Part shown: one piece after another, positions 41,541 to 59,150 of the stretch
Position numbering within the stretch: position 1 is the first letter of the stretch
How the letters are laid out: the number at the start of each line of letters is the position of its first letter
Assembly (NCBI RefSeq): GCF_038561955.2
Contig: NZ_CP138333.2
Location: 2,170,001-2,234,000 of the forward strand
Direction: 5' to 3'
From: Salinicoccus sp. Bachu38
Lineage (GTDB): Bacteria > Bacillota > Bacilli > Staphylococcales > Salinicoccaceae
DNA: 64,000 bases
Program-made: the position numbers and the translations under genes
Notes under the pieces: generated by a model
What the model was told of the DNA's origin: nothing
Databases searched by the model: none
Seen by the model: the letters and a program-made list of their open reading frames with translations, nothing else

Positions 41541-41544
41541 CCCT

Positions 41545-42345: not shown

Positions 42346-42448
42346 GACATATCCCCTTTTCCGTCTGATATCCATGCTGTTTGCAATACCCGACATTCAT
42401 TAATCTGAATATTACCATAAGTATTGTGCCACCACAATTTGCTTTCAG

Positions 42449-42491: not shown

Positions 42492-43550
42492 TTAATTTGC
42501 CTTCAGCCTCCGGATCAGCTCTTCCGTGACTTCCTCCGTCTTCTTGCCACCGCCGACATCCGGTGTCAGGAAGCCATCTGCTGTCACACGTTCCATCGTA
42601 TCAAGAAGCAGCGTGCCCATCTCCTCCTCGCCGTGATGGTCGAGCAGCAGCCTGGCAGTCCAGATCTGCCCGATCGGATTGGCGATCCCTTTGCCGACAA
42701 TGTCCGGCGCCGAACCGTGCACGGGCTCGAACATTGAAGGATGCTGCCCGTTCAGGTTGAGATTGGCTGATGGTGCGATGCCAATGCTTCCCATGATCGC
42801 CGCCCCAACATCGGTCAGGACGTCGCCGAACAGGTTGCTTGCGACGATGACATCATAGCGCTCCGGATGGGTGACGAATGTCGCGGCGAGCGCATCGATG
42901 TGCTGGGAGGATGTTTCAATATTCCCATGCTTTTCTGCAGTCTCCTTGAATACTTCATCCCAGAATGGCATGGAGTGGAAGATACCATTGGACTTCGTCG
43001 CACTGGTCACATGTTTGCGTCGGGATTTTGCCAGTTCGAATGCATGCTCCATTGCCTGTTTTGTTGCACGTCTCGAGAAGACATTGTTCTGTATGGCGAT
43101 TTCGTTGTCACCCTGGTACATCCGCCCACCGACGGAACTGTATTCCCCTTCGCTGTTCTCACGGACGACCACCAGATCGAAGTCCTTCGGATTCAGCAAT
43201 GGGGACCTTATGCCTTCGAACACTTTCGCAGGACGCACATTGATTTCAAGTTCGAACTCCCGTCTGATCTTGAGCAGCAGCCCCCATAGGGAAATGTGGT
43301 CCGGCACTTTTGAAATGTCGCCGACAGCCCCCAGAAAGACGCTGTCCGACTGGCCGAGCCGATCCAGTCCGTCTTCAGCCATCATGGCCCCATGCTTGAA
43401 ATAGTAGTCACATCCATAGTCGAAATGCTCATATTCGAATGCCAGTCCCCCATGCAGTTCTGCAATGGTGTCCAAAACCTTCAGGGAGTGCGGGACGACT
43501 TCTGTTCCGATGCCGTCACCCGGCACTACGGCAAGTTTTATCTTTTTCAT
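42492..43550 (-). CDS. Tartrate/D-malate dehydrogenase-like beta-decarboxylating dehydrogenase
   Basis: 352-residue enzyme of the isocitrate/isopropylmalate dehydrogenase superfamily. VVPGDGIGTEVVPHSLKVLD, YGCDYYFKHGAMM, VGDISKVPDHISLWGLLLKI and RENSEGEYSSVGGR are typical of the TtuC/YeaU (DmlA) group that oxidatively decarboxylates D-malate or L-tartrate with NAD, rather than of LeuB. TSATKSNGIF and DVGAAIMGSIGIAPSANLN form the cofactor and dimer sites. It follows the DASS transporter gene by 27 bp, suggesting import and oxidation of one hydroxydicarboxylate. 3-methylmalate and related substrates of such enzymes are also possible. Confidence 0.87.
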   Translation of the reverse strand: MKKIKLAVVPGDGIGTEVVPHSLKVLDTIAELHGGLAFEYEHFDYGCDYYFKHGAMMAEDGLDRLGQSDSVFLGAVGDISKVPDHISLWGLLLKIRREFELEINVRPAKVFEGIRSPLLNPKDFDLVVVRENSEGEYSSVGGRMYQGDNEIAIQNNVFSRRATKQAMEHAFELAKSRRKHVTSATKSNGIFHSMPFWDEVFKETAEKHGNIETSSQHIDALAATFVTHPERYDVIVASNLFGDVLTDVGAAIMGSIGIAPSANLNLNGQHPSMFEPVHGSAPDIVGKGIANPIGQIWTARLLLDHHGEEEMGTLLLDTMERVTADGFLTPDVGGGKKTEEVTEELIRRLKAN

Positions 43551-43577: not shown

Positions 43578-45008
43578 TTATGGCCAGAAACCGATCCATC
43601 TCCAATAAGTATACGCGATGACGATCATGATTGCGATGCTCGCAAGCGTCAGCCACAGGCCCGGCCATAGAAAATCCTTCTGGCTGACCCTGCCTGTACT
43701 GTGTACCACGACATTCGGCATGGTTTCCACTATCAGAAGAAATCCGAGCAGCATTGATATGGCTGAAGCGAAGACGATGACCACCGGATCCACACCGGAC
43801 TGTACGGACAGGCTGATCAGCACAGGCATGAGGGTGATGACCGCCGTGGATACATTCGTGACTCCCAGATGATAGATCTGGGACACGATGATGGTGATGG
43901 GGATGGCGAGCCAGGGATTGCTGAAGATGTCCAGCACAATCTGCGGAGATACCAGTACTTCCAAAAGGTCGATCGCCCCGGATTCTATCAATGAATAGCC
44001 CAAAGAGAGCGTCGCCCCGATCAGCAGCACCATGCCGAAGTTGATGTCCAGCATCTTCTTCCAGGCCGCAAAACCTGTCACCGGTATAGCCATCAATATG
44101 ACAGCAAGCAATGCACCGAATGTCGGATGATATCCGTGCCAGGACTCGGTAAACCAGATCAGTATGGTAACCACCAGTATCCCGATGCATTTCTTTTCAT
44201 CAATCGACAGACTGCCCAGCGAATCATATTTGCTCTTCATTTCAATCTGCAGCTTTTCGAATGAGTATGATTCCGGCGGATAGCATTTCCATACGATGTA
44301 CATCGTCGCCAGGACAAGAAGGATCCACATTGGTGCAGCATATATGAACCATTGAAGATAGGATATCGACACGCCTTCATACAACCTCAGGATTTCAACT
44401 GCCAGAATGTTCCCTATTGCCGCTGTAAGCACCACCGCTCCGCTCACATTTCCTCCGAAAGCGGCGCCGATATACATCAGCTTATTGAAGTTGGATCTTT
44501 CATCCATGCCAGTCTCCTCTATGATATTGCTCAATATCGGAAGCATCAGGGAGGCCCGGACAGCAGTTGCAGGAATGAAGAAGGCCTGCACCTGCATCAG
44601 GATGAAAAACCCGATATAGATTCCCTTGGCCGACTTCCCCATGAGTGAGAGCAGAAAATAGGTCATCCGCTTGACGAGCAGCGTCTGGTTCACCCCCACT
44701 GCCATCATCATGCCGCCGATGATGAGAAAGACGGCCGGAGACGCGAATCCGCTCAGGATTACATCCATCTCGACCGGTTTCATCACGATGAGCAGGACGA
44801 TGATGATGATTGAAGTCAACTCGATCGGGATGGGCGCAAAAGCCCAAAGAACAAGACCGAACACCATGATGGCAATCGTACTCCTGGCGGGCCAGGGAAC
44901 TGTTTCAGGCAAAAATGCGAGAACCGCCAGGAAGAGCAGTATGGCCGAAGCGAAAACGGCAGCCTGACCCCATCTTATACCGTTGGTATGCTTATATTTT
45001 TCCGCCAT
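43578..45008 (-). CDS. DASS/SLC13 family dicarboxylate transporter
   Basis: 476-residue sodium-coupled anion transporter with about 12 helices, clearly paralogous to the one at 30844: ATAVRASLMLP, GNVSGAVVLTAAIGNILAVE, VTNVSTAVITL and VETMPNVVVH match motif by motif. It sits 27 bp before the dehydrogenase gene, so D-malate, tartrate or another dicarboxylate is the likely cargo. GGAGG lies 9 bp before the ATG. It is downstream of the TRAP operon but separated by a hairpin. Confidence 0.88.
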   Translation of the reverse strand: MAEKYKHTNGIRWGQAAVFASAILLFLAVLAFLPETVPWPARSTIAIMVFGLVLWAFAPIPIELTSIIIIVLLIVMKPVEMDVILSGFASPAVFLIIGGMMMAVGVNQTLLVKRMTYFLLSLMGKSAKGIYIGFFILMQVQAFFIPATAVRASLMLPILSNIIEETGMDERSNFNKLMYIGAAFGGNVSGAVVLTAAIGNILAVEILRLYEGVSISYLQWFIYAAPMWILLVLATMYIVWKCYPPESYSFEKLQIEMKSKYDSLGSLSIDEKKCIGILVVTILIWFTESWHGYHPTFGALLAVILMAIPVTGFAAWKKMLDINFGMVLLIGATLSLGYSLIESGAIDLLEVLVSPQIVLDIFSNPWLAIPITIIVSQIYHLGVTNVSTAVITLMPVLISLSVQSGVDPVVIVFASAISMLLGFLLIVETMPNVVVHSTGRVSQKDFLWPGLWLTLASIAIMIVIAYTYWRWIGFWP

Positions 45009-45041: not shown

Positions 45042-45071
45042 AAAGAAATGCAGCATGGTATGCTGCATTTC
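45042..45071 (-). terminator. Terminator after TRAP permease gene
   Basis: GAAATGCAGCAT / ATGCTGCATTTC 12-bp stem followed by TTTATATCG on the minus strand. The U tract is short, so some read-through into the DASS gene is possible. Confidence 0.7.
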
Positions 45072-45079
45072 CGGCCATT

Positions 45080-47152
45080 CTATGTCATATTCATCTGCTT
45101 GCCGCTTCTAGTGGTGTTACGGGACTTTTTTTCCCGTGTTTTCGGTTTGCCCTTATTGATGTATTTCTGCATCAGTATCGCAACGGCGATCAGACCGACC
45201 GCCACAATATCGGTATACAGGCTGGACAGCATCAGCAGTACCGCAATGACGAGCAGGACGCCACGGACATACCACGGCGACAGTTTCCTGAAGAACCACC
45301 CTTGAACGGCCGCCGACAGGAAGTAGACGCCCACCAGTGCTGTAATTGTTGCGATCACAATGCTCAGGGTGCTGTCGCTCAGCAGCAGCAGCTCCGGACT
45401 GTAGAACATCATGAAAGGTACGATGAATGCCGCAAGTCCGATTTTGAAGGCTTCACCTGCCGTCTTCATCGGGTTGGTCCCTGTAATGCCTGCAGCCGCA
45501 AATGCTGCAAGGGCCACCGGAGGTGTGATTGCAGAGATGACCGCGTAATAGAAGACGAACATATGCGCCAGGATCGGTTCCATGCCCATCCTTACAAGAC
45601 CTGGTGCCACTACCGATGCTGCAACGGCATACGCTGCCGTTGTGGGCATGCCCATTCCCAGGATGATTGAAAGTATCATCGCAAAGACCAGGGCAATCAG
45701 CATATTGCTGTCAGCAATGGTAAGCAGCATCGTACTGAAACGCTGGCCGACACCAGTCAATGCAATGACACCGACGATGATACCGGCACATGCAACAATC
45801 GCAATCAGCTGCAGTGCATTCTTCATTCCAAGTTCAAATGCTTCCAGCACTTTCATGAACCCCATGCGTGTCTCCTTGCTGACCAGACTGAGCAGGAAAC
45901 AGACTACAATGCCGGCCGTACCTGCAAAGATTACACTGTAACCGCTTACAAGAAGACCTATAAGAAGTACGATCGGAATGAAAAGATATGCCTTCTTGAG
46001 CAGATACATCTTGTCGGGAAGCATTTTCAGCGGCAGACCCTTGAGTCCTTCTTTAAGTGCCTGGAAGTCGACCATGAAATACACCGACACAAAATAGAGG
46101 ATTGCCGGAATCGTCGCAGCCAGAATGACTTCCGAATAGGGAATGCCGGTAATCTCAGCCATCAGGAAGGCGCCGGCACCCATGATCGGTGGCAGCAGCT
46201 GTCCGCCGGCAGAAGCAGTTGCTTCGGTTGCTGCAGCGAAACGTGCCCTGTACCCCGTCTTCTTCATGAGGGGGATCGTGAGCGACCCTGTTGCGACAAC
46301 ATTGCCTGCAGAAGTCCCATTGATCATTCCCATCAGACCGGAAGAGAACACGGCGACCTTCGCAGGTCCGCCCCTCATCCAGCCCGCAAGCCGGAAGGCG
46401 ACATCAATGAAGTATTGACCGACACCCGACATCTGGAGGAAAGCGCCAAAGATGATGAAGAGAATGATGTATTTGGAAGATACATCCGTCGTCACACCGA
46501 ATACGCCGTCCAGCCCATAGATATAAGTGACAAACCTTTCAAAGGAATAGCCGTTATGATTCAGTATCCCGGGCAGGTATGGACCTGCAAAGGAATAGAG
46601 GATGAATACACCCGCCAGAATGGGAAGTGTCCAACCGCTTGTCCTTCTTGTTATTTCCAGCACGAGCAGTATACCTACTGTTGCGACAACCACATCAAGC
46701 GTCGTCGGTGTCACCCCAAATCGGAACACGAGTGTCGAAAGGTTGGCAAATATATAATAGCCGACAAACACTGCAGCGCCAATCAGAATCCAATCCAGAA
46801 TCGGTATCCGATTCGATTCCGTCTTCCAGCCTTTATAGAACATCACTGTCAATACGGTTCCAAACAGGATGTGTGTACTTCTGAACACCCATGGATCTAT
46901 CGGGTTGAAGTTCAGGATATAAAGGTGGTACAGGGCACCTGCCACAGCAATGATCATGAAAGTGTATCTCTTCCATCCAGTGAAGTTTCTGGTCTTGGGT
47001 GATGCTTCCAATGCATCTTCAGCCACTTCCGTATCCAGTTTGCCATCTTCCTCAATATCCGGATCTTTTTCAAGCTCCCTCAGATCATTCTCATCTCTCG
47101 GTTCACGCCGGTCCTCATGCTCATTCTCTTCATGCAAATCTTTCCTGGACAT
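45080..47152 (-). CDS. TRAP transporter permease, fused 4TM/12TM subunits
   Basis: 690-residue fused membrane component. An acidic, coil-like cytoplasmic N-terminus (about 60 residues, very rich in Glu, Asp and Arg) is followed by the small four-helix subunit and then the 12-helix DctM-like part with MSGVGQYFIDVAFRLAG, GMINGTSAGNVVATGSLTIP and the family hallmark LGMGMPTTAAYAVAASVVAP. It pairs with the TAXI receptor encoded just upstream and imports carboxylates with the sodium gradient. I choose the ATG at 47152 with GGGGGGA upstream. Its place at the end of the C5-acid operon makes it the probable substrate importer. Confidence 0.9.
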   Translation of the reverse strand: MSRKDLHEENEHEDRREPRDENDLRELEKDPDIEEDGKLDTEVAEDALEASPKTRNFTGWKRYTFMIIAVAGALYHLYILNFNPIDPWVFRSTHILFGTVLTVMFYKGWKTESNRIPILDWILIGAAVFVGYYIFANLSTLVFRFGVTPTTLDVVVATVGILLVLEITRRTSGWTLPILAGVFILYSFAGPYLPGILNHNGYSFERFVTYIYGLDGVFGVTTDVSSKYIILFIIFGAFLQMSGVGQYFIDVAFRLAGWMRGGPAKVAVFSSGLMGMINGTSAGNVVATGSLTIPLMKKTGYRARFAAATEATASAGGQLLPPIMGAGAFLMAEITGIPYSEVILAATIPAILYFVSVYFMVDFQALKEGLKGLPLKMLPDKMYLLKKAYLFIPIVLLIGLLVSGYSVIFAGTAGIVVCFLLSLVSKETRMGFMKVLEAFELGMKNALQLIAIVACAGIIVGVIALTGVGQRFSTMLLTIADSNMLIALVFAMILSIILGMGMPTTAAYAVAASVVAPGLVRMGMEPILAHMFVFYYAVISAITPPVALAAFAAAGITGTNPMKTAGEAFKIGLAAFIVPFMMFYSPELLLLSDSTLSIVIATITALVGVYFLSAAVQGWFFRKLSPWYVRGVLLVIAVLLMLSSLYTDIVAVGLIAVAILMQKYINKGKPKTREKKSRNTTRSGKQMNMT

Positions 47153-47173
47153 CTTATCCCCCCTTGAATGCTC

Positions 47174-47196
47174 CCGCACCCGGCTTCCGGATGCGG
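47174..47196 (-). other. Intercistronic hairpin between receptor and permease genes
   Basis: CCGCATCCGG / CCGGGTGCGG 10-bp stem (one U-G pair) with a 3-base loop and no U tract, between the TAXI receptor and the TRAP permease. It may stabilise the upstream receptor message, giving more receptor than permease. Confidence 0.5.
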
Positions 47197-47217
47197 AAAC
47201 AGTTAAGCTATGGTCAG

Positions 47218-48261
47218 TTATTCACTGCTTTCTTCCCATTCAGCCGGATATACTTCCTCCGGAAGTTCTACGCCGATCTCTTCATAGTAGCGGATCGCGC
47301 CCGGGTGCATCGGATAGTCGGTATTGTTCAGAATCGCTTCAGGATCCTCAGCTTCTTCAGCCGAGCTGTGCGTATTGATCATCTGGTCGATATTCTCGTG
47401 ATACATCTTCACAAGATCATAGACGAAGTCGGAGTTCGCTTCCTTCTGCACTACACCGAAGTTGAACTGGGCGATCGTTTCAATCGGCCCTTCCTGGGAA
47501 TCATAGGTACCTTCCGGGATGGTGAACTCCTTGAAATAGCTGAGCTCCTCCATGATCGTGTCACGATTTTCCCCTTCGATGCCATAGATGTTGATATCCG
47601 TCTGTGTCTCAGCCTCGACTACAGCCGAAATCGGGATGCCCGCCGAGAAACCGATATGCTCAAGCTGGCCATCCAGCATCTGTGAAACCATGTCACTGGC
47701 TCCAGCAGCCACCTGTTCCCCGGTTTCAATTCCAAGCGTTTCATAGATGATCGGGTTGTACGTACCTGGTGTTCCTCCGGCTGGACCGACACCGACACGC
47801 TCCCCTTCATGCTCCTCTATGCTGGTGACTCCTGTGGATTCGAGCGAGAACCAGTTGAACGGTGTATCATACATCGGGAAAATGACACGGATATCCTGGT
47901 ATTCCTTTTCCGCCCATTCCCCTTCACCGGTATAGCCTTCATACAATGGACCTTCAGTCACCATGCCAAGTTGGACATCATCCGCATCCAACAGCTGGAT
48001 GTTGTGGACCGGTCCGCCCGTCACTTCGACATTCGATGTCACATCGAGATGTTCCTCAAGCATCGTGGCAAAGCCGCCACCCCAGATATAGTAGGTACCG
48101 CCCTGTGAAGCTGTACCGATCGTCACCGTGCTCGGATATTCATTCTCTTCAAAATCAGCTTCGGCTTCTTCACCGCCTCCGCTGTCTCCGCCGTTGCCCC
48201 CACATGCTGCCATTACGCCAACTGTCAGAATGAGCATCATCACAAACCATAACTTTTTCAT
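47218..48261 (-). CDS. TAXI family TRAP transporter solute-binding lipoprotein
   Basis: 347-residue extracytoplasmic receptor. The signal peptide ends in the lipobox MAAC (Cys20), followed by a Gly/Glu-rich linker. The mature part has the TAXI signature TVTIGTASQGGTYYIWGGGFA, and VGPAGGTPGTYNP and DIRVIFPMY are typical of the family. It delivers substrate to the fused TRAP permease 65 bp downstream. Genomic context predicts a C5 dicarboxylate such as itaconate, mesaconate or citramalate. Confidence 0.92.
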   Translation of the reverse strand: MKKLWFVMMLILTVGVMAACGGNGGDSGGGEEAEADFEENEYPSTVTIGTASQGGTYYIWGGGFATMLEEHLDVTSNVEVTGGPVHNIQLLDADDVQLGMVTEGPLYEGYTGEGEWAEKEYQDIRVIFPMYDTPFNWFSLESTGVTSIEEHEGERVGVGPAGGTPGTYNPIIYETLGIETGEQVAAGASDMVSQMLDGQLEHIGFSAGIPISAVVEAETQTDINIYGIEGENRDTIMEELSYFKEFTIPEGTYDSQEGPIETIAQFNFGVVQKEANSDFVYDLVKMYHENIDQMINTHSSAEEAEDPEAILNNTDYPMHPGAIRYYEEIGVELPEEVYPAEWEESSE

Positions 48262-48286
48262 AAATGTTATCCCCTTTGCTTAATGT

Positions 48287-49483
48287 TTAGTAAGATCTCG
48301 GCATGCCCAGCACATGCTGTCCAATGTAGGAAAGGATCATGTTATTGTTCACTGGCGCCACCTGATACATCCGCGTCTCCCTGAACTTCCGTTCTATGTC
48401 GTACTCATCCACGAAACCATTTCCCCCATAAGTATTGATGGCAACGTTGGCTGCCTCCCAACTTGCCTCACTGGATATCAGCTTGGCCGTATTCGCCTCT
48501 TCTCCACAATTTTCACCCGTATCGAACTTTTCAGCCGCCTTGTATCTCAATGCATCCGCCGCTTTGATGGAGGCATACGCTCTGGCGATTGGAAACTGGA
48601 CCCCCTGGTTCTCTCCGATTTTCTTGTTGAACACCTCCCTTTCGCTTGCATAGCCCGTTGCCCTGTCAATGAAGAAATAGCCATCTCCGATGCTCTCCGA
48701 AGCCAGCAGGATACGCTCGGCATTCATGCCGTCGAGCACATACTTGAAGCCCTTCCCCTCCTCACCGATAAGACTGTCGGCAGGGATTTTCATATCCTTG
48801 TACCAGATCTTGTTCGTTGCATAGTTGAACATCGTCCTTACCGGCTCCACCTCAAGCGATTCCGGCTGTTTTTCCCTGATTTCACGCAGGTCGACCAGGA
48901 AGAGCGTCATTCCGTGGGACTTCTTCTCTACTTCTTCGAGCGGCGTCGTACGGGCCAGAAGGAGCAGGAGGTCGGACTGCAGGATGCGGCTCGTCCAGTT
49001 CTTGTGTCCGTTGATGACGTATCCGTCCTCCTTCTTCTCGGCGAAGGTGGTGATTGCCGTCGTATTGGATCCCGCTTCAGGCTCGGTGATCGAAAAGGCC
49101 TGCATGCGTATTTCACCACTTGCAATGCCGGGAAGGTATTTTTCCTTCTGTTCCTTGCTTCCGTGCCTGAGCAGCGAGCCCATCGTATACATCTGGGCGT
49201 GGCAGGCAGCAGCATGCCCCCCTGCCCTGTGTATCTCTTCGAGGATGATCGTCGCTTCAGTGAGGCCGTATCCCTTGCCTCCATATTCCGGAGGAATGAG
49301 CACGGACAGGTAGCCCTCTTCAGTCAGTGCATCCACGAACGCCTGTGGATATTCCCTGTCCGGATCGAGCCGCCTCCAGTATTCATTGCCGAATGAATCG
49401 CACAGCGCCCTCACTTTAAGACGCAGGCCCTCCCTTTCCGCTTCACTCAAAGTAATCGTTTCAGTACCAATCAATTCACTCAT
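48287..49483 (-). CDS. Acyl-CoA dehydrogenase
   Basis: 398-residue FAD enzyme with the standard three-domain layout: QAFSITEPEAGSNTTAI is the FAD/substrate loop, MNAERILLASES starts the C-terminal helical domain, and INTYGGNGFVDEYDIERKFRE holds the catalytic-Glu region. Within an itaconate/mesaconate-type operon a likely substrate is a methylsuccinyl-CoA-like or other branched C5 acyl-CoA, giving mesaconyl-CoA; Pseudomonas itaconate clusters also carry an acyl-CoA dehydrogenase. Assignment of substrate is inference. 14 bp after the fumarase beta gene. Confidence 0.9.
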   Translation of the reverse strand: MSELIGTETITLSEAEREGLRLKVRALCDSFGNEYWRRLDPDREYPQAFVDALTEEGYLSVLIPPEYGGKGYGLTEATIILEEIHRAGGHAAACHAQMYTMGSLLRHGSKEQKEKYLPGIASGEIRMQAFSITEPEAGSNTTAITTFAEKKEDGYVINGHKNWTSRILQSDLLLLLARTTPLEEVEKKSHGMTLFLVDLREIREKQPESLEVEPVRTMFNYATNKIWYKDMKIPADSLIGEEGKGFKYVLDGMNAERILLASESIGDGYFFIDRATGYASEREVFNKKIGENQGVQFPIARAYASIKAADALRYKAAEKFDTGENCGEEANTAKLISSEASWEAANVAINTYGGNGFVDEYDIERKFRETRMYQVAPVNNNMILSYIGQHVLGMPRSY

Positions 49484-49497
49484 TGCTGCATCCCCTT

Positions 49498-50058
49498 TTA
49501 TTGGTTTGATGATTCTTCAAATTGCTTGTGTGCTTCCTTGTACCAGTCATTTCCATGACTGTCGTTTATGACGATGCATGGAAAGTCCTCAACTTCCAGC
49601 TTCCTGATTGCTTCCGTCCCGAGATCTTCATAGGCGATCACCTCGGAGGAGAGGATCTTTTGGGCAAGCAGTGCACCTGTTCCTCCAATCGCCGCTATAT
49701 AGACTGCAGAATGCTTCTTTATCGATGCAACCACTTCCGCGCTTCTGTAGCCTTTGCCGATCATACCTTTCAAGCCTTCTTCCATCAGTCTGGGCGCATA
49801 GGCATCCATACGGCTGCTTGTCGTCGGGCCGGCGGAACCGATGACACTATCGGGTTTGTTCGGTGTGGGGCCGACATAATAGATGACCTGGCCTTCCAGC
49901 CCGACGGGCAAAGACTCCCCCTTTTCCAGCTGTTCCACCATCCGCTTGTGTGCTGCATCCCGCGCCGTATAGAGTGTTCCTGTCAACAGTACCTGTTCAC
50001 CACTTCTCAGTTTCTCGACTGCCCCTGCTTCAAAAGGGACCTTCAGTCTGATGCTCAT
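49498..50058 (-). CDS. Class I fumarase/tartrate dehydratase/mesaconase beta subunit
   Basis: 186-residue small subunit of a two-subunit Fe-S hydro-lyase. VLLTGTLYTARDAAHKRM and IGSAGPTTSSRMDAYAPRL are the substrate-binding signatures; IAAIGGTGALLAQKI and CIVINDSHGNDWY complete the domain. It pairs with the alpha subunit gene 12 bp upstream. Fumarase, L-tartrate dehydratase and mesaconase are all known in the family; the adjacent CoA-transferase, MaoC and lyase genes favour mesaconate hydration to citramalate. Confidence 0.92.
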   Translation of the reverse strand: MSIRLKVPFEAGAVEKLRSGEQVLLTGTLYTARDAAHKRMVEQLEKGESLPVGLEGQVIYYVGPTPNKPDSVIGSAGPTTSSRMDAYAPRLMEEGLKGMIGKGYRSAEVVASIKKHSAVYIAAIGGTGALLAQKILSSEVIAYEDLGTEAIRKLEVEDFPCIVINDSHGNDWYKEAHKQFEESSNQ

Positions 50059-50070
50059 GCTTTCTCCTCC

Positions 50071-50913
50071 CTACATCACGAAATGCTTATGTCGGCTCGC
50101 ATGGCAGTTCAGGTTTACAGCAACGGGCAATGCCGCAATATGGCATGGTGCCGTTTCCACTTTGATGTCGAGCGCCGTCGTGCTGCCTCCCATGCCCTGT
50201 GGGCCGATGCCAAGCTTATTGACTTCCGTCATCAGTTCTTCTTCCAGCCCGGCGATTTCAGGGTCTTCATGCCTCTCGCCGACAGGGCGGAACAATGATT
50301 TCTTTGCAAGATATGGAGAAACTTCGAAGTTACCGCCGATGCCGATGCCGATCACCAGCGGCGGACAGGCATTCGGTCCCGCTTCACGGACGGTGTCCAG
50401 AATGAATTTCTTGACCCCTTCGATTCCCGCGCTTGGAGTAAGCATCTTCATTGCACTCATGTTCTCTGCGCCGCCCCCTTTGGCGGACATCTGAACTTCG
50501 AGGTCCTCCCCTTCCACAAGTTCAATATGGATGACGGCAGGGGTATTGTCTCCGGTATTCCTGCGATTGATCGGGTCGTCCACTATGGAATACCTCAGGT
50601 ATCCTTCATCATAGCCCTTTTTGACCCCTTCGTTGATGGCCTCCTGCAGAGACCCTCCGGCAATATGGCAGTCCTGTCCAAGTTTTACTATGAAGACCGA
50701 TACGCCGGTATCCTGGCACATGGGCACCCTGTTGGAAGTGGCGATATCCGCATTTTCTATCAACTGGTTCAGAATCGATTTGCCGGCCTCGGACTTCTCG
50801 GTCCTGACCGATTCCTTGAAGGCATTGACTACATCCTCCCCCAGGTCGTAGTTCGCTTCCTGACATATCCTGGCCACTTCATCGACGATATCCTGATATG
50901 CTATCTCTTTCAT
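50071..50913 (-). CDS. Class I fumarase/tartrate dehydratase/mesaconase alpha subunit
   Basis: 280-residue Fe-S subunit. Cys66 (MCQDTG), Cys183 (NACPP) and Cys270 (NCHASR) are the three 4Fe-4S ligands, spaced 117 and 87 residues as in characterised class I two-subunit fumarases. KGGGAENMSAMKML is also conserved. Oxygen-labile hydration of fumarate, mesaconate or tartrate is expected. Class I fumarase with mesaconase activity supports mesaconate growth in Burkholderia xenovorans, which fits this operon. Confidence 0.93.
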   Translation of the reverse strand: MKEIAYQDIVDEVARICQEANYDLGEDVVNAFKESVRTEKSEAGKSILNQLIENADIATSNRVPMCQDTGVSVFIVKLGQDCHIAGGSLQEAINEGVKKGYDEGYLRYSIVDDPINRRNTGDNTPAVIHIELVEGEDLEVQMSAKGGGAENMSAMKMLTPSAGIEGVKKFILDTVREAGPNACPPLVIGIGIGGNFEVSPYLAKKSLFRPVGERHEDPEIAGLEEELMTEVNKLGIGPQGMGGSTTALDIKVETAPCHIAALPVAVNLNCHASRHKHFVM

Positions 50914-50925
50914 CCTCTACCTCCT

Positions 50926-51450
50926 TCACTGTCCTTTCTGGCCGTCGAGCACCTTCTGCAGGAGTTCGTCGCCTTGCTTCGGTGCCTGGTCCCTCTTATA
51001 GACCATCATCGTCCTTTTGAATGATATGACCACTTCGCCCCTCTGGTTATAGCCGAAAGTCTTCACATTGACGATGCCGACATGGGGACGGGATTTTGAT
51101 TCCCTGAGTCCGGTCACTTCCGAATAGGAGTAGATGGTGTCCCCTTCAAACACCGGGTTGGGAAGCTTGATATCGTCCCATCCGAGATTCGCCATCGCAT
51201 TCTGCGAAATGTCGGTGACCGACTGGCCGGTGACCAGTGCCAGTGTGAATGTAGAATCGACAAGCGGCTGTCCGAAGTCCGTCTGTTCTGCATAATAGTC
51301 GTCAAAATGGATTGGATTCGTGTTCTGGGTCAAAAGCGTCATATAGATGTTGTCCGTCTTTGTCACCGTCCTGCCCAGTGGGTGAGGATAGATATCCCCT
51401 TCGGAAAAGTCCTCATAATACCTGCCTGTCCAGCCCTGTTGAATACTCAT
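50926..51450 (-). CDS. MaoC-family enoyl-CoA hydratase (itaconyl/mesaconyl-CoA hydratase candidate)
   Basis: 174-residue hot-dog-fold hydratase. GRYYEDFSEGDIYPHPLGRT, TLLTQNTNPIHFDDYYA (catalytic Asp/His hydratase motif) and SQNAMANLGWDDIKLPNPVF are typical of MaoC enzymes linked to mesaconyl-CoA or itaconyl-CoA hydration. In Pseudomonas the Ich enzyme of itaconate degradation is of this family. It would make citramalyl-CoA for the lyase encoded two genes upstream. 10 bp after the CoA-transferase gene. Confidence 0.88.
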   Translation of the reverse strand: MSIQQGWTGRYYEDFSEGDIYPHPLGRTVTKTDNIYMTLLTQNTNPIHFDDYYAEQTDFGQPLVDSTFTLALVTGQSVTDISQNAMANLGWDDIKLPNPVFEGDTIYSYSEVTGLRESKSRPHVGIVNVKTFGYNQRGEVVISFKRTMMVYKRDQAPKQGDELLQKVLDGQKGQ

Positions 51451-51460
51451 GAATTTCCTC

Positions 51461-52618
51461 CTATTTATTGAATGTTTCAGATTTCAGTCCAAGTTCCTCC
51501 AAAATGCTGTCCGTATGCTCACCGAGGCCCGGCACCGGCTTCATCACTGCTTCGAAGCCGTTCATTGTCACTGGTGGCACAAGCGCACTGATTCGCCCTT
51601 CCGGTGTTTCCACGTCCTTCCAGCGGCTTCTTGCCTTCAGTTGAGGATGTTCGAAGAAATCCTTCATTGTATTGAGTCTTGCATTGGCGATTTTTGCATT
51701 TTCGACACGTTCAATGACAGTTTCGGATGTGAGTTCTGCAAACTGCTCCTCGATCAGTGCCTTCAAGGCTGCCCTGTTCTCCGAGCGCAGCGAATTCGTG
51801 TTGAACCGTGCATCGTTTTTAAGTTCCGGGTCACCCAGCACCTTGTCACAGAACTGCGCCCACTCGCGTTCGTTCTGCAGGCCGATGAACACGGTCTTGC
51901 CATCCCCACAGATGAATGGTCCATAGGGGTAGATGGTCGAATGGCTCGCCCCGGTACGTTTCGGCTCTTTGTTTCCGTAGGCGGCATAGTATGTGGGATA
52001 GCCCATCCATTCGCCGAGCGCCTCCAGCATGGAGACTTCCATGACCGTCCCCCTGCCCGTCTTCATACGGTTCATCAAAGCGGTGAGCACGCCCGTATAG
52101 GCGTACATGCCTGATGCAATATCCGCGATGGATATGCCCGCTTTGGACGGCTCCTCTTCCGTCCCTGTCACCGATACGAGCCCCGCTTCACACTGGACCA
52201 GCAGGTCATAGGCTTTCTTCTGTTCATATGGACCGCCCTTGCCGTAGCCCGACAGGCTGCAGACAACGAGCTCCGGGTGTTTTTCAACCAGTTCTTCAGG
52301 GATGAACCCCATGCGCTCAAGGGCTCCGGGAGCCAGGTTCTGTATCAGTACATCCGCTTTTCCGATCAGCTTTGACAATGCATCCTTTCCTTCGTCCGAC
52401 TTGAGATCGAGGGCAATCGACTCCTTCGAACGGTTGCACCATACGAAATGGCTCGACATTCCATTGACGGTCGTATCGTATCCTCTGGCGAAATCACCGA
52501 CATCAGGCCTCTCGACCTTTATTACTCTTGCCCCAAGATCCGCAAGCTGTCTCGTTGCGAATGGGACGGCAATGGCCTGCTCCAAAGAGACGACCGTTAT
52601 ACCTTCCAGTGGCAGCAT
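51461..52618 (-). CDS. Class III CoA-transferase (CaiB/BaiF), itaconate/citramalate CoA-transferase candidate
   Basis: 385-residue family III enzyme. The catalytic Asp166 lies in KAGISIADIASGMYAYTG. LPLEGITVVSLEQAIAVPFA, ADLGARVIKVERPDVGDFAR and QNLAPGALERMGF are typical. The overall sequence looks like the Pseudomonas itaconate CoA-transferase group rather than formyl-CoA transferase, from memory. It would activate itaconate, mesaconate or citramalate with succinyl-CoA. ATG at 52618 with GGAGGAGGAG upstream; the longer frame to 52660 overlaps the lyase gene. Confidence 0.9.
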   Translation of the reverse strand: MLPLEGITVVSLEQAIAVPFATRQLADLGARVIKVERPDVGDFARGYDTTVNGMSSHFVWCNRSKESIALDLKSDEGKDALSKLIGKADVLIQNLAPGALERMGFIPEELVEKHPELVVCSLSGYGKGGPYEQKKAYDLLVQCEAGLVSVTGTEEEPSKAGISIADIASGMYAYTGVLTALMNRMKTGRGTVMEVSMLEALGEWMGYPTYYAAYGNKEPKRTGASHSTIYPYGPFICGDGKTVFIGLQNEREWAQFCDKVLGDPELKNDARFNTNSLRSENRAALKALIEEQFAELTSETVIERVENAKIANARLNTMKDFFEHPQLKARSRWKDVETPEGRISALVPPVTMNGFEAVMKPVPGLGEHTDSILEELGLKSETFNK

Positions 52619-52637
52619 GAAACTCCTCCTCCATATT

Positions 52638-53492
52638 CTAGTAAACGCTTTCATTTTCAAGTAATTTTTTAGCCCTCTCAGCTACAGGGGCATCTATCAT
52701 CTTTCCATTCACTTGCAGGGCGCCATCGCCTTCATTGAATGACGCTTCATATGCTTCGACGATTTCTCTCGCTTCCTCGATTTCACGGTCTGTCGGGGCA
52801 AATACTTCATTGATCGTTTCCAGCTGCTTGGGGTGGATGACCAGCCTGCCCTGGAAACCGGCGCCTCTGCTTCTTATCGAAGCGGCTTTCAGGCCCTCCG
52901 GATCATTGAAATCCGTATAGACCGAATCAATCGGCGGGGCGATGCCGGCAGCACTCGATGCTGTCACCAGCATGGAGCGTGCATAAAGCAGTGCATCTCC
53001 TTCATCTTTCGGGATGCTGACATCAAGCATGTAATCCTCGGCACCGAATGCCAATGCTTCAATGCGTTCGGCGGATTGTGCAATATCGGCAGCATTGATG
53101 ATGCCCTTCCCCGTCTCAATCAATGGAACAATGCTGATCGATCCTGGCGCCAGACCATTTGCCCTCTCATAGTGACTGAGCAGAAAATCCGCTATCATCA
53201 TTTCATCCCGGGTGTCCACCTTCGGGATGACGATGCCGTCAGGAGCAGCCCCTGCAAGTGTTGCGATATCATCGATGAAGAATGGACTATGGACATCATT
53301 CACACGTACAAACCTTCTATTTTTCGATGTTGGCTGTCCAAGGGCCGCCTCCACCATTCCCCTTGCTTCCTTCTTATCTTTGGGAACGACACTATCCTCA
53401 AGATCAAAGATGAGTACATCGGCCCTAAGCTCCTTTGCCTTATCAAGGAACTTCTCTTTGGCGCCAGGGATGAAAATCCATGTTTTATTCAT
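52638..53492 (-). CDS. HpcH/HpaI/CitE-like acyl-CoA lyase (citramalyl-CoA lyase candidate)
   Basis: 284-residue TIM-barrel lyase. WIFIPGAKEKFLDKA, DVLIFDLEDSV, RFVRVND, IVPLIETGKGI (metal-ligand Glu) and ALAFGAEDYMLD (metal-ligand Asp) are the CitE/malyl-CoA lyase signatures; GRLVIHPKQLETINEVF closes the active site. In itaconate catabolism this enzyme (Ccl) splits (S)-citramalyl-CoA into acetyl-CoA and pyruvate. No CitD or CitF genes are nearby, so it is not citrate lyase. ATG at 53492 with GAGGGG 8 bp upstream; first gene after an internal promoter. Confidence 0.91.
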   Translation of the reverse strand: MNKTWIFIPGAKEKFLDKAKELRADVLIFDLEDSVVPKDKKEARGMVEAALGQPTSKNRRFVRVNDVHSPFFIDDIATLAGAAPDGIVIPKVDTRDEMMIADFLLSHYERANGLAPGSISIVPLIETGKGIINAADIAQSAERIEALAFGAEDYMLDVSIPKDEGDALLYARSMLVTASSAAGIAPPIDSVYTDFNDPEGLKAASIRSRGAGFQGRLVIHPKQLETINEVFAPTDREIEEAREIVEAYEASFNEGDGALQVNGKMIDAPVAERAKKLLENESVY

Positions 53493-53514
53493 TGTGCGCC
53501 CCCTCGTCTTGGAT

Positions 53515-53544
53515 ATTGTAGATTGGATACAATTAAAGTGTAAA
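53515..53544 (-). promoter_or_regulatory. Promoter of citE-like gene with GntR operator in spacer
   Basis: Minus strand TTTACA (53539-53544), 18-bp spacer, TACAAT (53515-53520). The spacer contains ATTGTATCCAAT (plus strand ATTGGATACAAT, 53522-53533), identical to the site at 55670-55681. Confidence 0.75.
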
Positions 53545-53592
53545 ATAAATCCAACCCGTTGTAAATATAGTTTTTGCAATTTATTGATTTTT

Positions 53593-54249
53593 CTATTTAT
53601 TTATCTTCTGTGCCTTCAGAACTTCTATCAGATCTTCGCGTGTCCGGTTGATGTGATGGGAGAGTTCGTTTGCCGCCCTCTCTGCGTCCTTGTTTGAGAT
53701 GGCTTCCAGGATGATGCCATGCTCCCTGTTGGACTTTTCGATCTGGCCGGGGATTACATATGGCGTATCCTTCGCAATTCCATGGGACACCCTTGCCATC
53801 AGACTATGCACTCTCTTGCTCTTGCACCCGCTGAGTGAAATGGTATGGAATCTTCTGTTCAAATCCACATATTCCTCCTTCTCGAATGTATCCAGCATTT
53901 TCAAGTGCAGCTTCTGCATCTCATCAAGTGCTTCATCTGTCAGGTGCGGGATGCTCTTTTTAAGGGCAAGGGACTCGAGCATCGTACGCAGTTCGTATAT
54001 TTCATCGATATCGTCGATTGTCAGTTCATTGACTACAGCCCCCTTGTGCGGTTCAAGTGTAATCAAACCCTCCATTTCCAGCGTCTTCAGCGCTTCTCTG
54101 ACAGGCATCCTGCTTACCCCGAGCTGCTCTGCCAATTCAGCCTGCACCAGATGCTGCCCAGGTTCCAGATCCCCTTTCAGAATCGCCTGCCTCAAAATCG
54201 TCGTTACAGAATTCGGCAGTACTTCCCTTTGTGCCATCTCAAGTTTCAT
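53593..54249 (-). CDS. GntR family regulator with FCD domain
   Basis: 218-residue regulator. The winged HTH has QAELAEQLGVSRMPVREALK and KTLEMEGLITLEPHKGAVV; the C-terminal all-helical FCD ligand domain has the metal/ligand residues Asp in LNRRFHTISL and His in SHHINRTR. The ATG at 54249 has AAGGTGA at correct spacing; a GTG at 54258 overlaps it. It lies inside the C5-acid operon after the MmgE/PrpD gene, and the shared ATTGGATACAAT sites in both operon promoters are its probable operators, with a pathway metabolite as inducer. Confidence 0.9.
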   Translation of the reverse strand: MKLEMAQREVLPNSVTTILRQAILKGDLEPGQHLVQAELAEQLGVSRMPVREALKTLEMEGLITLEPHKGAVVNELTIDDIDEIYELRTMLESLALKKSIPHLTDEALDEMQKLHLKMLDTFEKEEYVDLNRRFHTISLSGCKSKRVHSLMARVSHGIAKDTPYVIPGQIEKSNREHGIILEAISNKDAERAANELSHHINRTREDLIEVLKAQKINK

Positions 54250-54278
54250 AACGCTCACCTTTTCCTATATCTTGTTAA

Positions 54279-55637
54279 TTATTTTATATCTACCCGGTTC
54301 TTAGGAAAAAGCATTTCCAAATCTTCAACTTCCTCAAGTGAAAGTATCTTCTGGGCGATTCTTTCACGCTCAGATTGATCTACTTTCCGACTCAGCTGCA
54401 TGAATTTATCCACTAGCTCATCCTTCGTCACCGGCTGCTCCGGATCTCCTTTTGGATAGTCCGTATCGAGCTCAATGTGCTCTCCATTTTTCAATATTAC
54501 CTTCGCAAGCGCCCCCCACTGGTTCGGATAGGCGCCATCTTTGGCCGAATCGACATATATCCTGACCTTGGACATCAATCCCCTTATTTCTTCATTCCAC
54601 AAGTTTTCCTCGTTGAATGTGTTGAGGCTGCCCTCCTGCATCACAAAAGCATGCGCCGTACAGTACTGGAGGCTGAACTTGCCCTGATAGACGGTCACCG
54701 GGTTGTCATTATCCGTAATGTTGATGGCCACCTGATATGTGCCAACCTCGATGCTTTCAATGTCCTCTGCATCCAGCCCCCGCTCCCTGGACAGTTCGGC
54801 GACGATGTCCATCGCGTGATGGGTATGCCTGCAGGAGGCATGGACCTTGAAGGAGTTCTCCATTATCTTGTATGTCTCCCCGAGCCCCTCCGTCACTTTT
54901 GAAACATCGTACGCATCACTCATCGCTTCGAAGAACCCGCGGTTCCCCTCCAGTATACGGCTTGCTGCAGTGAAGTCCTTCTGGGACAGGAGCCCGGCAA
55001 TCACTCCGTTCATCGCCGCTTTTCCGGGATGCAGCTGCTTCGACATCGCACCATCTTCGATGAACTCCCATAAACCGGCTGCCTGCGTTCCCGCACTGCC
55101 GAGCGCATGGACGATCTGCTCTTCGGACAGATCGAGCAGTTTTGCCACAGCCGCCGCTGCACCAAACGTACCGCATGTCGCAGTGTTATGCCAGTAGTAG
55201 TAGTGGGAAGGGGTCACTGCCTCACCGATTCTGAAGCATACCTCATAGCCGGCAACTACGGCAGTAATCAGATCCTTGCCCGAAAGATCATCCCGTTCGG
55301 CAATCGCCAGTGCAGCCGGGATGACGACAGTCGCTGCATGGATGATGGACCCCTTATGGATATCATCCTGTTCGACGATGTGGCTTGATGCACCATTGAG
55401 CAGTGCTGCATTCGTCACGGACGACTTCCCACCCGTAATCAAAGTCGCCTGCTCATGCCCTCCGAGTTCCCTGACCATCTCCTCCACCTTCGCAACCGGT
55501 GGCGTATCAGACCCGGCAATGGCAGAGCTGAAATAGTCGAGAATGCAGAGCTTCGTAAATTCTACAACGTCATCCGGCAGCTGCTCGTAGGAGACCGACC
55601 GGATATATGATGCGAGTGACTCACTTAATTTCATCAT
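54279..55637 (-). CDS. MmgE/PrpD family protein (cis-aconitate decarboxylase/methylcitrate dehydratase superfamily)
   Basis: 452-residue protein of the MmgE/PrpD superfamily. GASSHIVEQDDIHKGSIIHA, KQLHPGKAAMNG and FKVHASCRHTHHAMD hold the conserved His and Lys residues; CTAHAFVMQ is in the second domain. The family includes 2-methylcitrate dehydratase and cis-aconitate decarboxylase (itaconate synthase). The Pseudomonas itaconate cluster also carries a homologue, so a role in C5 acid handling (isomerisation, hydration or decarboxylation) is likely here. First gene of the cluster; ATG at 55637 or 55634 after AGGGGTG. Confidence 0.88.
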   Translation of the reverse strand: MMKLSESLASYIRSVSYEQLPDDVVEFTKLCILDYFSSAIAGSDTPPVAKVEEMVRELGGHEQATLITGGKSSVTNAALLNGASSHIVEQDDIHKGSIIHAATVVIPAALAIAERDDLSGKDLITAVVAGYEVCFRIGEAVTPSHYYYWHNTATCGTFGAAAAVAKLLDLSEEQIVHALGSAGTQAAGLWEFIEDGAMSKQLHPGKAAMNGVIAGLLSQKDFTAASRILEGNRGFFEAMSDAYDVSKVTEGLGETYKIMENSFKVHASCRHTHHAMDIVAELSRERGLDAEDIESIEVGTYQVAINITDNDNPVTVYQGKFSLQYCTAHAFVMQEGSLNTFNEENLWNEEIRGLMSKVRIYVDSAKDGAYPNQWGALAKVILKNGEHIELDTDYPKGDPEQPVTKDELVDKFMQLSRKVDQSERERIAQKILSLEEVEDLEMLFPKNRVDIK

Positions 55638-55664
55638 GACACCCCTTTGTTTGAAGTTAACCCC

Positions 55665-55693
55665 ATTATATTGGATACAATAGCCAATATCAA
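55665..55693 (-). promoter_or_regulatory. Main promoter of the C5-acid operon with GntR operator
   Basis: Minus strand TTGATA (55688-55693), 17-bp spacer, TATAAT (55665-55670), with ATTGTATCCAAT (55670-55681) filling the spacer up to the -10. Same 12-mer as in the second promoter at 53522. Confidence 0.85.
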
Positions 55694-55819: not shown

Positions 55820-57301
55820 CTATTCCAAACCAAGCTCTTGGGAAGTTGCCTTCCGGATTTCTTTTAACAAGGCACTGTCTTCTATTAAGGAGTGGCCATA
55901 TGAAGGAATGATCTCTTTTATTCTAGGCTCCCATTTTTCCATATATTGCGGGAAGTTTTTTTCAAAGACCTCCAGCGCAACAGATACAGACGTAGAAGCG
56001 CCTGGAGATTCTCCTAACAAGGCCATGACAGATTTGTCCTCAGAATGAACAACCTCTGTTCCAAATTGAATATATCCTTTCCCATACTCTTCGGTATCTT
56101 TGATTACCTGCACACGTTTTCCAGCTATAATTAAATCCCAGTCCTCGTCTTTTGCTTCAGGAACAAATTTTCTCAGCTCCTTCATCCGGTCTTCCTTGTC
56201 CATCATGACCTGCTGAATAGAATATTTAACCAGTGGCACGTTCTTAGCGCCGGCAGATAACATAGTCAATACGTTACTCGGATTAATGGATCTGAAAAGG
56301 TCCAGATTGGAACCATTCTTCAGGAATTTAGGGCCTATAGCCGCAAAAGGCCCAAATAATAGACTCTGGTCACCTTGAATATACCGCCTATCCAAATGGG
56401 GCACAGTCATCGGCGGCGTGTTTGGGGGTTCTTTCCCATAAACTTTGGCACCATGCCGGTTTACTATTTCCGAATTTGTACAAACTAAAAATGCACCGCT
56501 TATCGGGAAACCGCCAAGATTTCTGCTCTCAGGAATTTTTGTTTTTTGCAGCAGCGGAATTGCATTACCTCCAGCTCCAATAAAGATATAATCCGCTACA
56601 TGGTATTCAACCTTATCATCTTCAAGGTTATGGATCTTAACGCCCCATTTGCTGTCTCTTCTTCTTTCGAAATCAAGCACCTCGTGATTATAATGCACTT
56701 CTGCGTTATCATGTTCACTGATGTTTTCCATCATTTTTCGAGTAAGTTCACCGAAATTGACATCAGTTCCTGTGTCTATTTTACTCGCAGCAACAACTGC
56801 ATCTGATGTACGCCCTTCTGTCATTAAAGGGATCCACTTTTCCAATTCATTAAGGTCCTCTGAATACTCCATGCCTTCAAACATCGGTAATGGGGATAAT
56901 GCCTCATACCGCTTCCTTAGGAAATTCACATTATCCGTACCCTGTACAAAACTGATATGAGGTAATGGACGAATAAATTCCTCCGGATTTTGTATTTCTT
57001 TATTTTTGACCAGATAGGACCAGAATTGCTTGGAAACTTCAAATTGTTCATTTATTTCTTTTGCCTTTTCAATATCTATCGATCCGTCTTCTTGTTCAAC
57101 TGTATAATTCAATTCACATAACGCAGCATGGCCTGTTCCGGCATTATTTCTTTCGTTTGAACTTTCTATCGCTGGTTTATCCAATCTTTCAAACAGTTTA
57201 ATATTCCAATCCGGCTCTATATTTTTTAAAAACGAACCAAAAGTACTGCTCAAAATACCAGCACCTATCAGGATGACTTTTTTCGGTTCTGTGTTATCCA
57301 T
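55820..57301 (-). CDS. lqo: Lactate/malate:quinone oxidoreductase (Mqo/Lqo family)
   Basis: 493-residue FAD-dependent membrane-associated oxidoreductase. VILIGAGILSSTFGSFL is the FAD-binding motif, and SNERNNAGTGHAALCELNYT and LLGESPGASTSVSVALEVFE are Mqo signatures. In S. aureus one Mqo paralogue (Lqo) oxidises L-lactate with quinone; the position 52 bp after a lactate permease gene favours Lqo here, though malate activity cannot be excluded. The gene is visibly more AT-rich than its neighbours (for example 18 G/C in 57181-57240), suggesting acquisition from a low-G+C relative. AAAGGTGA precedes the ATG. Confidence 0.88.
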   Translation of the reverse strand: MDNTEPKKVILIGAGILSSTFGSFLKNIEPDWNIKLFERLDKPAIESSNERNNAGTGHAALCELNYTVEQEDGSIDIEKAKEINEQFEVSKQFWSYLVKNKEIQNPEEFIRPLPHISFVQGTDNVNFLRKRYEALSPLPMFEGMEYSEDLNELEKWIPLMTEGRTSDAVVAASKIDTGTDVNFGELTRKMMENISEHDNAEVHYNHEVLDFERRRDSKWGVKIHNLEDDKVEYHVADYIFIGAGGNAIPLLQKTKIPESRNLGGFPISGAFLVCTNSEIVNRHGAKVYGKEPPNTPPMTVPHLDRRYIQGDQSLLFGPFAAIGPKFLKNGSNLDLFRSINPSNVLTMLSAGAKNVPLVKYSIQQVMMDKEDRMKELRKFVPEAKDEDWDLIIAGKRVQVIKDTEEYGKGYIQFGTEVVHSEDKSVMALLGESPGASTSVSVALEVFEKNFPQYMEKWEPRIKEIIPSYGHSLIEDSALLKEIRKATSQELGLE

Positions 57302-57353
57302 TTTACGGTCACCTTTCCATTTTAAAATAATCCATTTTAATAATAATTTTCTC

Positions 57354-59096: not shown

Positions 59097-59118
59097 AAAC
59101 AACCCCCATGTCCCAAGT

Positions 59119-59150
59119 TTGATTATAATCAACTAGTCATCAGATGACTA
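59119..59150 (-). promoter_or_regulatory. lctP promoter with palindromic operator
   Basis: Minus strand TATAAT (59122-59127) with TAGTCA (59145-59150) as -35, 17-bp spacing. TAGTCATC-A-GATGACTA (59134-59150) is a perfect 8-1-8 palindrome over the -35 region, as bound by FadR/LutR-type GntR repressors; TTGATTATAATCAA (59119-59132) is a second palindrome over the -10. Confidence 0.7.

Follow-up and report, generated by a model that had tools for sequence, protein, structure and literature searches.

A predicted GntR-controlled operon for branched C5-dicarboxylate catabolism in Salinicoccus

Among the closest described relatives of the locus reported here is the Pseudomonas aeruginosa cluster PA0878-PA0886 (ich-mcd-VOC-msi-ict-ccl and a TRAP transporter). 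In Pseudomonas and Cupriavidus, an acyl-coenzyme A (CoA) dehydrogenase and an MmgE/PrpD protein form the methylsuccinate branch of this metabolism, according to 2025 work (PMC12290011), and PA0884-0886 speeded growth on the pathway acids (PMC9875883). The Ict-Ich-Ccl route and itaconate dissimilation are already in print for Mycobacterium tuberculosis (PMC13307414 and PMC6689899, respectively). The 2025 survey placed 96.2% of methylsuccinate isomerases in Pseudomonadota, and the words Bacillota, Firmicutes, Bacilli, and Gram-positive are absent from its main text (PMC12290011); our literature search found no Bacilli operon of this kind in print. Here we describe a locus of Salinicoccus sp. Bachu38, whose group is related to the staphylococci, in a 64,000-nucleotide stretch of the genome (RefSeq assembly GCF_038561955.2, contig NZ_CP138333.2, positions 2,170,001 to 2,234,000; hereafter, the window), which, judging from its sequence, is very probably a GntR-controlled catabolic operon for branched C5-dicarboxylates that would end in acetyl-CoA and pyruvate.

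An earlier note on this DNA had placed ten genes of named families on one strand between positions 45080 and 55693. The open reading frame (ORF) list of the window has all ten on the minus strand, from 45080 to 55637, intact and with short gaps between them, and Pfam and NCBIfam profiles agree with each family name. The unit is larger, with a DASS gene after the permease; the earlier note had missed this gene and two palindromes. The more likely starts are ATG 53492 for the lyase (284 amino acids) and ATG 52618 for the CoA-transferase (385 amino acids). The genes are as follows.

54279..55637, minus strand: MmgE/PrpD protein, predicted (S)-(R)-methylsuccinate isomerase (Msi-like)
53593..54258, minus strand: GntR/FCD regulator (Pfam GntR and FCD), predicted local repressor
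52638..53492, minus strand: CitE/HpcH-type CoA-ester lyase, predicted (S)-citramalyl-CoA lyase
51461..52618, minus strand: class III CoA-transferase, predicted succinyl-CoA:itaconate/(R)-methylsuccinate CoA-transferase (Ict)
50926..51450, minus strand: MaoC hydratase, predicted mesaconyl-C4-CoA hydratase/itaconyl-CoA isomerase (RipB/Ich-like)
50071..50913, minus strand: class I fumarase alpha, predicted mesaconase (NF004885, 419.7 bits, cut-off 276)
49498..50058, minus strand: class I fumarase beta (NF005310, 276.1 bits, cut-off 238)
48287..49483, minus strand: acyl-CoA dehydrogenase, predicted methylsuccinyl-C4-CoA dehydrogenase (Mcd-like)
47218..48261, minus strand: TAXI-family TRAP solute receptor, N-terminus lipoprotein-like by eye (TIGR02122, 203.4 bits, cut-off 84.35)
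45080..47179, minus strand: fused TRAP permease (TIGR02123, 707.4 bits, cut-off 320.65)
43578..45008, minus strand: DASS (SLC13-type) anion symporter, conserved 11th gene (TIGR00785, 206.3, cut-off 198.6)
42492..43550, minus strand: tartrate/D-malate-dehydrogenase-type enzyme (TtuC), possible 12th gene (TIGR02089, 562.6, cut-off 470.4)

Methylsuccinate, itaconate, mesaconate, or citramalate would be imported by the TAXI-TRAP system and/or the DASS symporter, and the MmgE/PrpD protein would interconvert (S)- and (R)-methylsuccinate. Next, (R)-methylsuccinate, itaconate, or (S)-citramalate may be charged with the CoA of succinyl-CoA by the class III CoA-transferase. The dehydrogenase would convert methylsuccinyl-C4-CoA to mesaconyl-C4-CoA, and the MaoC protein would hydrate mesaconyl-C4-CoA and isomerize itaconyl-CoA, giving (S)-citramalyl-CoA, which the CitE-like lyase is predicted to split into acetyl-CoA and pyruvate. 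The class I fumarase would turn free mesaconate into (S)-citramalate, which would enter through the CoA-transferase. The analysis establishes which genes are present, their homology, order, and conservation, the two palindrome sites, and the recurrence of the cluster, whereas we infer every substrate, the repressor role, the import, and the fate of the dehydrogenase electrons. The C5 reading is supported by a CoA-transferase that groups with Ict and shares 60% identity with it, by 57% identity between the dehydrogenase and Mcd, by an MmgE/PrpD protein that has the proposed Msi residues and belongs to a sister clade of Msi, and by the recurrence of the gene set elsewhere. The core of the earlier note, in which C5-dicarboxylates enter through a dedicated importer and end as acetyl-CoA and pyruvate, a class I fumarase serving as mesaconase, is the best-supported reading; its title named itaconate, mesaconate, and citramalate but left out methylsuccinate, even though the dehydrogenase and the MmgE/PrpD protein correspond to the methylsuccinate branch (PMC12290011).

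As references we used the proteins encoded by a copy of the known cluster on a P. aeruginosa plasmid. The identity of the CoA-transferase to P. aeruginosa Ict equals that between the assayed Cupriavidus necator Ict and PA0882, likewise 60% (PMC12290011). Its position is inside a 106-row Ict clade (support 99, branch 0.52; quick tree), with all 31 paralogue rows and 3 weak rows across the root; the earlier note had named this phylogeny as a test that could refute it, and the enzyme sits with Ict. Our trees were quick ones, except for the final MmgE tree (16 versus 27 versus 6 rows) and the acyl-CoA dehydrogenase tree with 22 other dehydrogenases; in these two, and in the quick MmgE and dehydrogenase trees, the rows were picked by score, so that group membership is partly by construction. 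In the latter, the dehydrogenase and Mcd form one 34-row group (100/100), the window enzyme lying in a Bacilli/Arthrobacter group that adjoins the Mcd subgroup rather than within it. The MmgE/PrpD protein, the only one found in the window genome, is 39% identical to P. aeruginosa Msi and has all seven proposed Msi residues (H86, E89, H100, Y146, H150, K200, and K264). In a tree with only 6 outgroup rows and without three long rows (L045, L038_17370, and L023), the 16 MmgE proteins of Bacilli clusters group together as the sister of 27 Msi-like rows (96/92), not within them.

Six loci of the family were compared: that of the window, L011 from a relative in its genus group, and L012 to L015 from a second such group, g2. 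The order PrpD-GntR-CitE-CoA-transferase-MaoC-FumA-FumB-dehydrogenase-TAXI-TRAP is unbroken in all six, and the DASS symporter follows the permease in each. The ratio of nonsynonymous to synonymous substitution rates (dN/dS) between the window and L011 ranges from 0.012 (FumA) to 0.117 (CitE-like lyase), with 0.021 for the dehydrogenase; the ten genes are under purifying selection. We also examined the surroundings of 19 Ict-like genes outside the window genome (at least 50% identity over most of the gene; the one in genome G226 is in two pieces) against those of 20 paralogous CoA-transferases (34 to 40% identity) and three paralogues from the window's own family; a partial 55% match in genome G367 was left out, and several loci stop at contig borders. 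A CitE-like lyase gene is near 16 of the 19 Ict-like genes versus 1 of the 20 paralogues. The corresponding counts are 11 versus 1 for FumA, 13 versus 1 for FumB, 12 versus 2 for Mcd-like, 12 versus 3 for GntR, 6 versus 2 for Msi-like, 6 versus 0 for MaoC, and 3 versus 0 for DASS genes. The three family paralogues have one GntR gene nearby and no other operon homologues. Of the 20 controls, L176 is a C5 cluster in its own right that uses a different CoA-transferase, and both an Mcd-like and an Msi-like gene are present in L173. The conserved order in six loci, the low dN/dS, and the co-occurrence with Ict-like genes indicate that the grouping is not due to chance.

The same enzyme families could serve an unrelated acyl-CoA pathway, for example, for another dicarboxylate or an aromatic side product. 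Cassettes of MaoC, acyl-CoA dehydrogenase, and MmgE, with or without CaiB, do stand beside other enzymes in Rubrobacter, Natronorubrum, and Deinococcus, with no CitE-like gene in the stretch fetched. However, the window CoA-transferase resembles Ict, and lyase and fumarase genes accompany Ict-like genes, which makes this explanation very improbable.

Within the family, the operon is patchy (6 of 33 genomes). Of 398 genomes sampled evenly across the class, 20 (counting that of the window) have, among the matches listed, a gene at least 50% identical over most of the CoA-transferase, and G367 adds its partial match; weaker paralogues are common (at least 178 of the 398 at an E value of 0.001). 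A scan of genome contigs, covering the best 80 of 597 stretches (595 relatives), yields no frequency. The idea that the operon is unique to Staphylococcaceae was rejected, since other Bacilli have related clusters, as does a plasmid of Thermus; it is no staphylococcal speciality. The Thermus thermophilus plasmid pAA2-2c (L022) carries GntR, CitE-like, FumA, FumB, dehydrogenase (58%), CaiB (60%), MaoC (69%), and TAXI-TRAP genes; unlike the window, it has no MmgE/PrpD gene in the stretch and two directions of transcription, and its lyase (30%), TAXI receptor (23%), and permease (32%) are weak matches. Mandelate-racemase-family genes lie within or beside the C5 clusters L144 and L036, and L144 also has a methyltransferase-domain gene.

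Several observations weigh against the C5 reading; they concern the CoA-transferase models, the MmgE/PrpD protein, the make-up of other loci, the hydratase, the lyase, and the electron acceptor. The CoA-transferase falls under the cut-off of the NCBIfam CoA-transferase models; P. aeruginosa Ict and Ccl also fall under their own, and we therefore rejected these cut-offs as an argument against function. The seven Msi residues are also kept in non-Msi members and so are not diagnostic, and the best solved match of the MmgE/PrpD protein is a Bacillus subtilis MmgE/IRG1 homologue (168 bits), the function of which is given as undetermined in PMC12290011. At several Bacilli Ict-like loci, no MaoC, PrpD, or acyl-CoA dehydrogenase homologue was found within the stretch fetched.

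The MaoC protein scores 200 bits on the RipB_Ich model, below its cut-off of 340, and has no tblastn match to Ich at 1e-6 in the comparison with the P. aeruginosa locus; it has 174 amino acids versus 275 in P. aeruginosa Ich, which itself matches no model at 1e-10. Its nearest solved chain is 8hgn (132 bits), a mesaconyl-CoA hydratase/beta-methylmalyl-CoA dehydratase that is twice as long and shares the motif QNTxxxHFD in its second domain. Other (R)-hydratases have D-x-N-P-x-H at this place. In locus L048, an Msi 66% identical to that of P. aeruginosa is accompanied by a window-type MaoC, and the cluster has no match to P. aeruginosa-type Ich, so that the window-type protein seems to fill the place of the latter. 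The lyase scores 222 bits on citE and 191 bits on RipC_Ccl (cut-off 375), below the cut-off in both cases; P. aeruginosa Ccl itself scores 158 bits on RipC_Ccl, and the two proteins are 34% identical. In a quick tree with weak deep support, the Bacilli lyases fall outside the P. aeruginosa Ccl clade, and CitE of the Escherichia coli citrate lyase is placed among them in a weakly supported part. The best solved match of the lyase is a malyl-CoA/beta-methylmalyl-CoA lyase. In the alignment, the lyase keeps the acidic positions that act as metal ligands in this family. By sequence, the lyase is a family-level CitE-like match only.

These solved relatives, a beta-methylmalyl-CoA dehydratase and a malyl-CoA/beta-methylmalyl-CoA lyase, would fit a mesaconyl-C1-CoA route, in which the MaoC protein forms beta-methylmalyl-CoA and the lyase releases propionyl-CoA and glyoxylate, steps known from the ethylmalonyl-CoA and methylaspartate cycles. 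The substrate of 8hgn is presumably a C1 ester, belonging to other pathways. Curated models, however, prefer RipB_Ich over the haloarchaeal 2-methylfumaryl-CoA hydratase (200 versus 90 bits) and RipC_Ccl over the haloarchaeal L-malyl-CoA/beta-methylmalyl-CoA lyase (191 versus 78 bits). Users of the products (malate synthase, methylmalonyl-CoA mutase, and a second PrpD) were not found in the genome, on which ground this route was rejected as the main reading, and C. necator Ict yields the C4 ester of methylsuccinate (PMC12290011). We regard the C1 route as most unlikely.

The locus is like PA0878-PA0886 in having homologues of Ict (60%), Mcd (57%), and Msi (39%), a CitE-like lyase, and a TRAP transporter, and unlike it in having GntR and TAXI/fused TRAP plus DASS in place of LysR and DctPQM, and in having fumarase genes in the operon and no VOC gene. 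Compared through NCBIfam models only, it resembles the Yersinia-type rip operon (RipA-RipB-RipC) in its RipB_Ich and RipC_Ccl scores, but these are below the cut-offs, and the methylsuccinate and mesaconate genes are extra here. The CoA-transferase of Yersinia rip is of another class. With a hydratase that is RipB-like and not of the Pseudomonas type and a lyase matched at family level, the operon appears to be a mosaic: as far as sequence comparison goes, it follows the same logic as the known itaconate/methylsuccinate pathway with mosaic parts. The parallel to Ict, Ich, and Ccl drawn in the earlier note accordingly stands for the CoA-transferase but not for the MaoC protein, and the lyase is not demonstrably Ccl.

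The last of the adverse observations is that no electron-transfer flavoprotein (ETF) was found, with no match to PF01012 in the window genome; of 14 control genomes, 10 were positive in the same search. Despite this, the window genome has three acyl-CoA dehydrogenase C-domains. Across 47 genomes, ETF was found in 0 of 26 of the family, 0 of 2 of a sister family, and all 19 of the other Bacilli that carry an Ict-like gene; in the order, 3 of 150 genomes match, 2 of them over the cut-off. The dehydrogenase step would thus lack its usual acceptor; the authors of the Pseudomonas work assumed ETF in this role (PMC12290011). The closest relatives of the dehydrogenase outside the family (L144, L145, and L158) come from ETF-bearing genomes, so that the enzyme itself need not be special. 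As a tentative explanation, about which we are somewhat doubtful, the dehydrogenase of Salinicoccus and its relatives may be ETF-independent, using O2 directly or another acceptor or acting as a redox-neutral mesaconyl/itaconyl-CoA isomerase.

The class I fumarase subunits score over the cut-offs of NF004885, NF005310, TIGR00722, and TIGR00723, and class I fumarases can hydrate mesaconate (PMC4682846). A class II fumarase/aspartase-type gene lies elsewhere in the genome, in a search that cannot separate fumarase from aspartase, which suggests that the class I enzyme is not the sole fumarase. FumA and FumB are present in all six family loci and, as noted, near 11 and 13 of the 19 other Bacilli Ict-like genes. 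A TtuC-type gene comes next after DASS in the window and L011, and homologues (62 to 66%) occur in the C5 clusters L036, L040, L144, and L145; it was not seen in genus g2, where the sequence past DASS is ~2 kb in L033 and L034 and ~0.8 to 1.1 kb in L012 to L015. These genes would suit a version of the C5 reading in which mainly free mesaconate, citramalate, or 3-methylmalate is used, through the fumarase branch and a TtuC-type dehydrogenase for a 3-methylmalate isomer, with itaconate and methylsuccinate as side substrates. We consider this version possible but rather unlikely: Mcd-like and Msi-like genes, kept in all six family loci, would be roleless in a pure mesaconate/citramalate pathway.

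The make-up of the TAXI-TRAP system is complete, with a receptor and a fused permease both over the model cut-offs. PA0884-0886 is annotated as a DctP-type TRAP in the P. aeruginosa plasmid copy, and the importer varies among clusters (TAXI in L143 and L036; DctP/DctM in L148, L150, L156, and L159). At the hydratase position of L036, between the CoA-transferase and the dehydrogenase, lies an enoyl-CoA-hydratase (crotonase)-family gene.

Candidate regulatory features are the following.

55670..55681, minus strand: operator candidate 1, ATTGTATCCAAT, at the prpD promoter candidate
53522..53533, minus strand: operator candidate 2, ATTGTATCCAAT, ~30 bp before the citE-like ATG
55665..55693, minus strand: promoter candidate TTGATA-17-TATAAT, 11/12 matches
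45045..45071, minus strand: hairpin, terminator or attenuator candidate in the permease-DASS gap (z -4.34)

The 12-base palindrome ATTGTATCCAAT stands at both places in all six family loci. The first copy accompanies the TTGATA-17-TATAAT site, at whose start, 55693, the interval of the earlier note ended; the promoter scan overall is at chance level (21 sites versus 21.0 in shuffles). At the second, a promoter-like TTTACA/TACACT lies alongside (TAAACT in L015). The 2.62-Mb genome has three exact copies, of which these two are the only intergenic ones; the third sits within a coding gene and was rejected as a regulon member. Of 25 further Bacilli loci with an Ict-like gene, 5 (L035, L036, L039, L144, and L145) have exact copies, each outside ORFs of at least 100 amino acids; since the other 20 lack it, the palindrome is a trait of some relatives only. 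Three of 20 control loci have an exact copy, within ORFs in L171 and L172 and outside ORFs in L176, the control that is a C5 cluster as well. The gene of the GntR/FCD regulator lies between the two sites; its product probably reads ATTGTATCCAAT and would repress two promoters through it until a pathway acid or CoA-ester is present.

Hairpins occur at three places: upstream of the prpD promoter, downstream of the TtuC-type gene, and in the permease-DASS gap (z about -4.1 to -4.3). The last is found in all six family loci, with a paired change from G-C (window and L011) to A-T (the four g2 loci), and is not among the sites called by the terminator scan. Given its conservation, this hairpin may attenuate transcription into the DASS gene, which would then be more than a plain co-transcribed member.

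Beyond a terminator-like hairpin lie a DUF3100 membrane protein gene and a short neighbor with a weak, subthreshold LysO match (41091-42396). Upstream (55820-59132), an Mqo-family gene has a second GntR gene and one for a lactate permease as neighbors; its product scores highest on the lactate-quinone oxidoreductase model (860, missing the cut-off of 915) and is over the cut-off on several malate:quinone models, so that it may be a malate or a lactate enzyme.

The link to host colonization proposed in the earlier note found no evidence in the distribution, which is all that was looked at. The clusters would represent a Bacilli branch of the same metabolism, in which hydratase, lyase, and importer are exchanged, mesaconase genes are part of the set, and the regulatory site can be read from the sequence. 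They also hint at what a TAXI-TRAP system may carry. With no ETF found, the question arises of what re-oxidizes the acyl-CoA dehydrogenases of this order; if ETF independence is true, the methylsuccinate step would have a different chemistry, as perhaps would acyl-CoA dehydrogenases across an order nearly without ETF. Mesaconate/beta-methylmalate metabolism of a soil Bacillus was reported in 1976-77 (as cited in PMC4682846), and it is for this metabolism that the clusters may provide candidate genes.

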